In this document: positions 12,431 to 13,055 of the stretch, in pieces
Numbering within the stretch: the stretch's first letter is position 1
Layout: each line of letters opens with the position of its first letter
Assembly (NCBI RefSeq): GCF_001442535.1
Contig: NZ_CP013141.1
Location: forward strand, 5,375,239 to 5,401,523
Source: Lysobacter antibioticus
GTDB lineage: Bacteria; Pseudomonadota; Gammaproteobacteria; Xanthomonadales; Xanthomonadaceae
Reading direction: 5' to 3'
DNA: 26,285 bases
Made by a program: the position numbers and the translations under genes
Notes under the pieces: generated by a model
Databases searched by the model: none
What the model was told of the DNA's origin: nothing
The model's input: only the letters and a program-made list of their open reading frames with translations

Positions 12431-12501
12431 GCATTGGCATTGGCATTGGCTTTCGCCGTTGCCGTTGCCGTTGCCGTTGCCGTTGCCGTTGCCGTTGCCG
12501 T
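12431..12501 (+). repeat. Hexanucleotide arrays (GCATTG) x3 and (GCCGTT) x7.8
   Basis: Three copies of GCATTG (12431-12448) and nearly eight of GCCGTT (12455-12501, the TTGCCG unit in another phase) form the array block of copy B. A six-base spacer separates them. Confidence 0.95.
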
Positions 12502-12730
12502 GAGAGCTTGGCGCAGTACCGACCTCGCGAGAAGGCCTGGAGACCCGGAGGGCGCCGCACAGGACGTGCGGCGTTTTCCGATAAGACAGGGACGTCTTAT
12601 CGGAAAATCCCGGCGCGAGCTGCGTGCTCGCAGGGGAGCTTCGTCAAGGAAAAGCATTTTTTCTTTGGTGACTTTCTTTTGGGGCTTTGGCCAAAAGAAA
12701 GTTACCCGCACCCTTTAGGGGGCGGAAGCT
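12431..12730 (+). repeat. Composite hairpin repeat element, copy B
   Basis: Same order as copy A, pointing right, against the fab operon. H1 12553-12573 is CGCCGCAC-AGGAC-GTGCGGCG then TTTT. H2 12574-12607 has a perfect 14-bp stem TTTTCCGATAAGAC/GTCTTATCGGAAAA around AGGGAC. An H3-like AT-rich hairpin follows near 12647-12668. H4 has arms 12667-12682 (GGTGACTTTCTTTTGG) and 12691-12706 (CCAAAAGAAAGTTACC), 16 bp with one G-T pair. H5 near 12706-12726 is a weaker CGC-CCC/GGG-GCG hairpin with loop TTTA. Stems differ from A and C mostly in both arms at once. Confidence 0.8.
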
Positions 12731-12930
12731 CTGCACTTGTTTATGCCTTTCTTACAAGCAAGATCAAACGCCAAAAGCTTCCGCCACTAAAGCGGCGGGT
12801 TACTTTCTTTTGTCTAAAGCAACAAAAGAAAGGTAACCAAAGAAAAATGCTTTTCTTTGAATCACAGGCCCGCACGAGCGATGCTTCCGCAGGGCTTTTT
12901 CATACGGGACATCCCTGTCCCGATGAAAAA

Positions 12931-12952
12931 CGGCCCGCATCCATGCGGGCCG
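12931..12952 (-). terminator. Terminator-like hairpin (H1 of copy C) between fabH and fabD
   Basis: A 9-bp GC-rich stem with a four-base loop, followed on the minus strand by TTTTT (12926-12930), has the form of an intrinsic terminator acting on transcripts that leave fabH. It lies about 290 bases past the fabH stop. The following bases can also pair in H2, which might compete for the T-run. Confidence 0.55.
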
Positions 12953-12995
12953 CCCTCCGGGCCTTCTGTTGCCTTCGCGAGTGCCTAGCGACGCA

Positions 12996-13055
12996 CAGCA
13001 ACAGCAACAGCAACAGCAATGGCAATGGCAATGGCAATGGCAATGGCAATGGCAA
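12996..13055 (-). repeat. Hexanucleotide arrays (CAGCAA) x4 and (TGGCAA) x6
   Basis: Four CAGCAA (12996-13019) followed directly by six TGGCAA (13020-13055), as read on the plus strand. On the element's own strand the units are TTGCCA and TTGCTG, one-base variants of the TTGCCG unit in A and B. Confidence 0.95.

Follow-up and report, generated by a model that had tools for sequence, protein, structure and literature searches.

What kind of selection holds together a repeat made of several hairpins, and does it act on RNA or on DNA? The question is raised by a 26,285-nt stretch of the Lysobacter antibioticus chromosome (NZ_CP013141.1, positions 5,375,239 to 5,401,523; the whole of it is called the window here), in which three copies of such a repeat, A, B and C, lie at 3599-3971 (+), 12431-12730 (+) and 12759-13055 (-). 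The first-pass annotation of the window had described in them two hexamer arrays followed by hairpins with paired changes in the stems and fixed loops, from which selection on folding, as RNA or as cruciform DNA, was proposed. The three copies and their positions, the hexamer arrays (Tandem Repeats Finder, TRF), the H1 stems and the 14-bp H2 stem of copy B were all found as described. The analysis of the host genome (5.77 Mb, a single contig) and of its relatives indicates that selection at the RNA level for a site of the RsmA type has very probably shaped the hairpins H1 and H2. The long hairpin formerly numbered H4 is called H5 in what follows, because the short AAAGAAAA/TTTTCTTT hairpin is counted as H4.

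Loops and stems of H1 and H2

Across the 154 full-length copies of the host genome (24 of subtype A, 41 of B and 89 of C), the A and the GGA of the two loops showed no departure in 1,232 cells, whereas departures numbered 73 of 266 at the N position between them and 22 of 308 at the final loop base. In the host genome N is mostly G, in relatives frequently T, and the H1 loop of copy B has five bases. Both loops fit A-N-GGA-Y and present their GGA within a hairpin loop of the ANGGAN form, the loop rule for RsmE/CsrA; H2 reads ACAGGGATGT, which may be compared with the consensus RUACARGGAUGU from SELEX (systematic evolution of ligands by exponential enrichment), rule and consensus coming from one source (PMC7652899). 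The kept loop core had been given as AGGGA and has to be narrowed to A..GGA, since the H1 loops read ATGGAT in copy C and AGGAC in copy B. In relatives the stems of H1 and H2 differ and the loop rule is unchanged. The two loops start 26-29 nt apart, a spacing that would suit one CsrA dimer, and genes of the CsrA family (PF02599) are present in 56 of 60 genomes, including that of the host, which has two matches (G000:C1:1553603 and 4041669), one strong and one weaker. Binding of RsmA to the RNA of the element is likely. The mini-hairpin CCCGGAGGG before H1 was also considered as a third GGA site and was ruled out, because its GGA alternates with GAA among species.

The stems were examined by folding and by covariation. 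Copies C and B gave folding z-scores of -7.3 and -7.8, and none of 200 shuffles equalled them. Covariation was assessed in 61 MAFFT-aligned H1-H2 cores from 33 genomes or records, taken from 78 distinct cores with at most three per genome or record. Double-change cells numbered 231, against 67.7 +/- 6.9 in shuffled alignments (0/500 reached 231) and 31-66 in slid structures, and both partners had changed in 17 of the 19 pairs, the shuffled value being 14.3. When arms were swapped between stems, pairing fell from 0.984 to 0.606 in H1 (26 distinct stems) and from 0.884 to 0.633 in H2 (37 stems). The share of paired cells in these cores, 83.8%, is inflated by their selection for GGA loops with at least 5 pairs, a selection which does not by itself explain the double changes or the swapped-arm result. 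The proposal of selection on folding is supported by this covariation across species. The T4-5 tract following H1 is not a free U-tract: it is the 5' arm of H2, paired with the terminal A-run of that hairpin, and in congeners the two runs are exchanged for arms such as TGCGCCAC/GTGGCGCA.

Within the host genome, departure from consensus amounts to 11% over all columns, a value raised by badly aligned ends; by segment it is 15-24% in the 5' linker, 10-12% in the H3 region and 0.1-3% in the H2 arms. G-U pairs and A-C mismatches number about 15 and 12 in H1/H2, 63 and 53 in H4, and 38 and 3 in H5, so that in H1, H2 and H4 an excess of G-U is not clear within this genome. H6 of type C was left out of this count, as was a count derived from alifold, because that program favours G-U.

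Kinship with TwoAYGGAY and the third hairpin

The earlier statement that no named family was recognised is in part mistaken. The window gave no family match at Rfam cut-offs, but H1-H2 is TwoAYGGAY-like (RF01731), under the cut-off here and over it in some congeners. Copy C scored 34.1 bits against a cut-off of 43 (E 0.0016, 12891-12956, in a search of 701 bases), and the best score of the host genome among the matches listed, 40.5, also stays under it. The cut-off was passed by 1 of 20 tested loci (L298, of a congener, 44.8 bits) and by 6 of 41 genomes, the host being counted among the 41 and not among the 6, which are three congeners (G001, G003, G016) and three genomes from other families of the order. 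In the class, 15 of 369 genomes passed it and 30 matched at E up to 0.01, with 0/14 in controls; both figures are lower bounds, because 7 candidates per genome were scored and the host genome itself was missed. A follow-up search matched 3 of its 16 genomes (52, 11 and 2 matches), and every one of these matches stayed under the cut-off. The element shares with TwoAYGGAY two adjacent hairpins of the A-Y-GGA-Y type in the same order, some congener copies passing the cut-off; it differs in its lower score, in its A-N-GGA-Y loops, which do not keep the strict A-Y-GGA-Y in both hairpins, in the added H5 and H6, and in its high-copy inverted pairs. TwoAYGGAY belongs to clan CL00106, which we take to be that of CsrA-binding RNAs. 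The motif was reported in 2010 from human gut, gamma-proteobacteria and Clostridiales (PMC2864571), and its binding by CsrA was predicted and termed a testable hypothesis in another study (PMC4333381); no validation of this link was found in the literature searched. A weak match of the window element to sX7 (E 0.097) was also recorded.

The third hairpin, H5, extends the known TwoAYGGAY motif. A scan with an H5-palindrome pattern found at least 141 sites in at least 120 loci, for 80 of which titles were given, and 125 of the 141 sites had 140 nt of upstream sequence. A sense ANGGAN hairpin of at least 6 bp stood at -130 to -70 of H5 in 23/125 and an antisense one in 0/125; in the 40 loci added last the counts were 7/43 and 0/43, and in random 737-bp windows such a hairpin appeared on either strand in 50/800. 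The 16 titled positive sites belong to Pseudomonas, Dyella, Methylocaldum, Psychromonas, Nevskia, Pseudoxanthomonas, Luteimonas and a metagenome-assembled genome (MAG) of Thiotrichales. In a larger set of 243 H5 sites, tandem hairpins were found in 53 under a strict rule (7/8 pairs; antisense control 1/270) and in 112 with 5 contiguous pairs (antisense 0), but many of these sites lie in loci that had been retrieved by their match to copy C, and the unbiased figure is therefore the pattern-only 23/125. Viewed from the other end, 30 TwoAYGGAY loci of the class were inspected by eye for a T-rich/A-rich hairpin of at least 13 bp with one mismatch allowed, which was present downstream in 19/30 and upstream in 0/30. 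It lies 31-110 nt past the Rfam match, and its arms, as unlike as GTCGATTTTCTTG, GCCTACTTTTTCCG and GGTTCGTTTTCTTTGT, differ among loci yet remain largely complementary. Given the upstream and downstream counts, the double hairpin is frequently accompanied by H5 in Gammaproteobacteria. A TTTGGTTACTTT..AAAGTAACC hairpin recurs in Oscillospiraceae MAGs (among L143-L222), often near contig ends. Seven clostridial genomes with the H5 palindrome (G426-G432) gave no TwoAYGGAY match at E up to 0.1, and the composite is accordingly shown for Gammaproteobacteria only.

The outer pairs of H5 also bear on the choice between RNA and cruciform DNA. In the 226 of 243 sites scored, they comprised 46 genome-position entries with G-U, 1 with A-C and 14 with other mismatches, shared descent lowering the number of independent G-U events. 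Since the A-N-GGA-Y loop is strand-specific and G-U far exceeds A-C in these pairs, sense-strand RNA fits better than a cruciform, so that one of the two forms first proposed is favoured and the other fits less well. The exchange of TTTTGG/CCAAAA for TTTTGT/ACAAAA between copies, pointed out earlier, is present and lies in this hairpin. As for the composite with its third hairpin and its expansion into inverted pairs, no description was found in the literature searched, in which subscription journals were thinly covered.

Copies in the genome and in the window

The H5 motif, with at most one mismatch allowed, has 224 matches in the host genome (119 forward, 105 reverse), while the same motif read backwards has 1 (0 forward, 1 reverse). 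From among the H5 matches listed, 93 stretches around copies were taken, in which, together with the window, blastn found 220 pieces, the best match being C for 101, B for 74 and A for 45. Copy C has blastn matches in 27 of 60 genomes, its own included: 20/20 in the genus, 7/16 in the rest of the family and 0/24 in other families of the order; plasmids and phages gave no blastn match at E 1e-5. Where long pieces neighbour one another at a distance under 400 bp (n=93), the arrangement is tail-to-tail in 50 cases, head-to-head in 38 and in tandem in 5; 38 of the 50 tail-to-tail gaps measure 20-35 bp, and 71 of the 88 inverted neighbours pair an A or C copy with a B copy. Genes were called with a home-made codon-based caller, clusters being required to have a called gene on both sides and copies split by an insertion sequence counting as two. 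Convergent genes flank 60 of the 118 clusters, co-oriented genes 57 and divergent genes 1, and in none (0/118) does the overlap with a called gene exceed 60 bp. The intergenic gaps of these stretches number 75 convergent, 191 co-oriented and 48 divergent, figures which are not a neutral background because the element sites are included in them. Many copies, in alternating orientation and outside genes, are thus found, as in repetitive extragenic palindromic (REP) sequences and bacterial interspersed mosaic elements (BIMEs).

Dispersal is seen between species as well. At the fabH-fabD site, the element is present in the host, other forms of it occur in G007 and G009, and in the intergenic stretch of the other 10 of 12 congeners none was seen by motif search. 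In one Pseudomonas genome (L161 record) there are 52 TwoAYGGAY matches, all under the cut-off, which can be read as 2 singles and 25 inverted pairs, a copy of 40 bits being joined in each pair to a weaker one. Copies are also struck by insertion sequences. One of about 1.14 kb enters at the 5' base of H5, apparently in five copies: those in L046 and L064, read over their whole length, have GT at both ends, and those in L082, L096 and L103 are inferred from a like split. Its product passes the Pfam cut-off for HTH_38, with an integrase core just under it. We take it to be IS30-like. Another of about 1.45 kb, presumably IS3-like, has entered three inverted pairs of a Pseudomonas genome (L444, L445, L446; G435) at the H5 base, in both orientations, and L447 matches it over its first 381 bases. 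No mobilising enzyme for the element was found: the three Y1-transposase (PF01797) loci of the host have no copy in their flanks of about 1.5 kb, where a repeat partnered with REP-associated tyrosine transposases (RAYTs) would be expected. The repeat may be a non-autonomous mobile element, as suggested earlier, being dispersed, paired like BIMEs and variable in presence at the one orthologous site compared.

The three copies, whose parts are listed in the table, are the only places in the window where hairpins of 5 pairs or more with A-N-GGA-Y loops stand in tandem. The B/C pair is flanked by a fabD-like acyl-transferase gene (11336-12277) and a fabH-like gene for ketoacyl-ACP (acyl carrier protein) synthase III (13246-14232). 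Perfect hexamer arrays of varying length head each copy, and are also seen in a congener (L326); their differences in length are likely to come from slippage. The 22-nt insert in the 5' arm of H5, GACCGAAGGGAATCCAGACGGA or close to it, occurs in A copies, in one B copy (L339) and in congeners (L297, L336 and L338 among the loci). At 4000-4330 and about 13066-13090 of the window the elements are adjoined by another, shorter repeat, which reads GTAGGAGCGGCGCAAGCCGCGACC or the complement of this and resembles REPs of the GTAG type.

Table. Parts of the three repeat copies, in window coordinates
Feature	Coordinates	Strand	Source
Copy A hexamer arrays, TTGCCG x12 and GCTGTG x6	3599..3716	+	TRF (3599-3671, 3681-3716)
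Copy A H1, ANGGAN hairpin, loop AGGGAC	3759..3778	+	
Copy A H2, ANGGAN hairpin, loop AGGGAT, SELEX-like ACAGGGATGT	3780..3814	+	
Copy A H3	3816..3841	+	
Copy A H4	3851..3872	+	
Copy A H5, GGTTAC..GTAACC, 5' arm with the 22-nt insert that marks subtype A	3872..3934	+	
Copy A H6, CCGCC..GGCGG	3934..3951	+	
Copy B two hexamer arrays, GCATTG and GTTGCC	12431..12501	+	TRF (12431-12450, 12455-12501)
Copy B conserved mini-hairpin CCCGGAGGG, 5' of H1	12544..12552	+	
Copy B H1, loop AGGAC	12553..12573	+	
Copy B H2, perfect 14-bp stem, loop AGGGAC	12574..12607	+	
Copy B H3, region less conserved	12615..12631	+	
Copy B H4, short A/T-rich hairpin	12646..12666	+	
Copy B H5, long hairpin (H4 of the first-pass annotation)	12667..12706	+	
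Copy B H6	12707..12724	+	
Copy C H6	12781..12798	-	
Copy C H5, long hairpin	12798..12838	-	
Copy C H4	12838..12859	-	
Copy C H3	12869..12894	-	
Copy C H2, loop AGGGAT	12896..12930	-	
Copy C H1, loop ATGGAT; forms the TwoAYGGAY-like core together with H2	12931..12952	-	
Copy C mini-hairpin CCCGGAGGG	12953..12961	-	
Copy C two hexamer arrays	12995..13055	-	TRF (12995-13019, 13016-13055)
B(+)/C(-) tail-to-tail inverted pair, the commonest neighbour arrangement	12431..13055		

A proposed role for the repeat and its rivals

The reading towards which we incline is that of a BIME-like repeat whose transcripts would bind RsmA and either sequester or tether it. Each copy would then be a structured RNA with two adjacent hairpins of the CsrA/RsmA type, followed by the long pyrimidine/purine hairpin H5 and the short H6, and the family would represent an RNA of the TwoAYGGAY type turned into an interspersed repeat, lying outside genes and mostly in inverted pairs of two subtypes. 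Read-through or 3'-untranslated-region (3'-UTR) transcription across a copy would give a sense RNA to which RsmA binds, the bound protein being either titrated or kept on that transcript, and an inverted pair would offer a sense copy to transcripts arriving from either side. Transcription, RsmA binding and titration or tethering are here what we infer. As a precedent, RsmU of Xanthomonas is described as a 3'-UTR-derived RNA that sequesters RsmA (PMC7694677).

RsmU of Xanthomonas campestris resembles the element, by description, as an RsmA-sequestering RNA from a 3' UTR, sequestration by the element being a prediction; it differs as a single locus, for which no homologue in Rfam was found by its authors (PMC7694677). 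CsrB, RsmX, RsmY and RsmZ likewise carry several hairpins with GGA loops per RNA (PMC7652899, PMC4333381), a likeness by description, and the element differs from them in having two sites per copy and well over 100 dispersed copies. REPs, BIMEs and miniature inverted-repeat transposable elements (MITEs) share with it the high copy number, the extragenic position, the alternating inverted orientation and the role of insertion-sequence target; it differs in its unit of about 250-300 bp, its several hairpins and the lack of copies beside the three Y1-transposase loci. CsrB and the Rsm RNAs are dedicated small RNA genes with more sites. Finally, the intergenic repeats of Pseudomonas fluorescens, R178 and R200 among them, resemble the element, by description, in their position and, for several families, in a bias towards tail-repeat-tail placement (PMC2718517).

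Several observations weigh against the sequestration or tethering of RsmA. RsmU with all its GGA motifs changed still bound and still had an effect (PMC7694677), and most SELEX hairpins have at most 4 contiguous pairs, a very stable structure being possibly a disadvantage (PMC7652899), while the H1 and H2 stems are long. The copies of the host genome are not independent, and some of their stems vary as little as the loops do (0.1-1% departures in the H2 arms of type C), for which reasons the telling contrast is that of A/GGA with N within one loop. Two covariation measures are only modestly above shuffles (double-change pairs 7/500, pair types 34/500). The window core, at 34.1 bits, falls short of the RF01731 cut-off of 43, and two Dyella genomes and one Methylocaldum genome, whose loci have ANGGAN hairpins before H5, gave that model no match even with E allowed up to 0.1. 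At the pattern-found H5 sites, 102/125 have no such hairpin upstream, and a loose hairpin rule fails to separate the downstream (23/30) from the upstream (17/30) side of TwoAYGGAY. As to placement, the 12 unsplit single-copy sites between co-oriented genes, read row by row by eye, are divided into 6 sense and 6 antisense, and strand preference is therefore absent; moreover, the tail-repeat-tail bias of other Pseudomonas repeats has been explained as the least bad location (PMC2718517).

The same facts can be read in other ways. A mobile repeat of the REP/BIME or MITE kind, whose hairpins a transposase would recognise as single-stranded DNA, any RNA role being incidental, would account for the 224 H5 matches, for the tight tail-to-tail gaps (38/50 at 20-35 bp), for the 25 inverted pairs and 2 singles among the 52 Pseudomonas matches, for the differing presence at fabH-fabD and for two different insertion sequences striking H5; it is unlikely, given the three Y1-transposase loci without a copy in their flanks of about 1.5 kb and the preference for RNA expressed in an A-N-GGA-Y loop that is tied to one strand and free at its second base and in the H5 excess of G-U over A-C, features with which single-stranded DNA of the same strand is also compatible. 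Control in cis, by RsmA bound downstream of a gene or within an operon and acting on the stability or translation of that transcript without titration, would make use of the same invariant A..GGA loops and would suit the position of copies downstream of genes, in the window between the fabH-like and fabD-like genes; the 12 co-oriented sites without strand preference and the occupancy that varies between species at the one site examined make it less likely still. The poorest candidate is a role as terminators or 3'-end-protecting hairpins between convergent genes, to which the stable hairpins, the 60/118 convergent as against 1/118 divergent clusters and the T4-5 directly after H1 in the host genome would lend themselves. 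As intrinsic terminators the copies were rejected because the T-run is an arm of H2, replaced in congeners by compensated G/C-rich arms; no conserved U-tract was found, none of terminator type standing sense-downstream of H5 among the H5 sites listed, and termination does not need an invariant A..GGA loop.

Returning to RsmA sequestration or tethering, a wider and more doubtful proposal is that of a distributed sponge, in which well over 100 copies, each with a dimer-spaced pair of sites and a third hairpin, would set the free RsmA and couple it to genome-wide read-through transcription, a composite that would recur across Gammaproteobacteria and, in Pseudomonas, also as inverted pairs. In any case, the predicted link between TwoAYGGAY and CsrA is sharpened by single-base data from within one genome, and the motif gains a third hairpin with compensated changes across families. 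The high-copy form in inverted pairs raises the possibility that a global RNA-binding regulator may be buffered or addressed by repeats, which provides one class of bacterial intergenic repeats with a concrete functional hypothesis.
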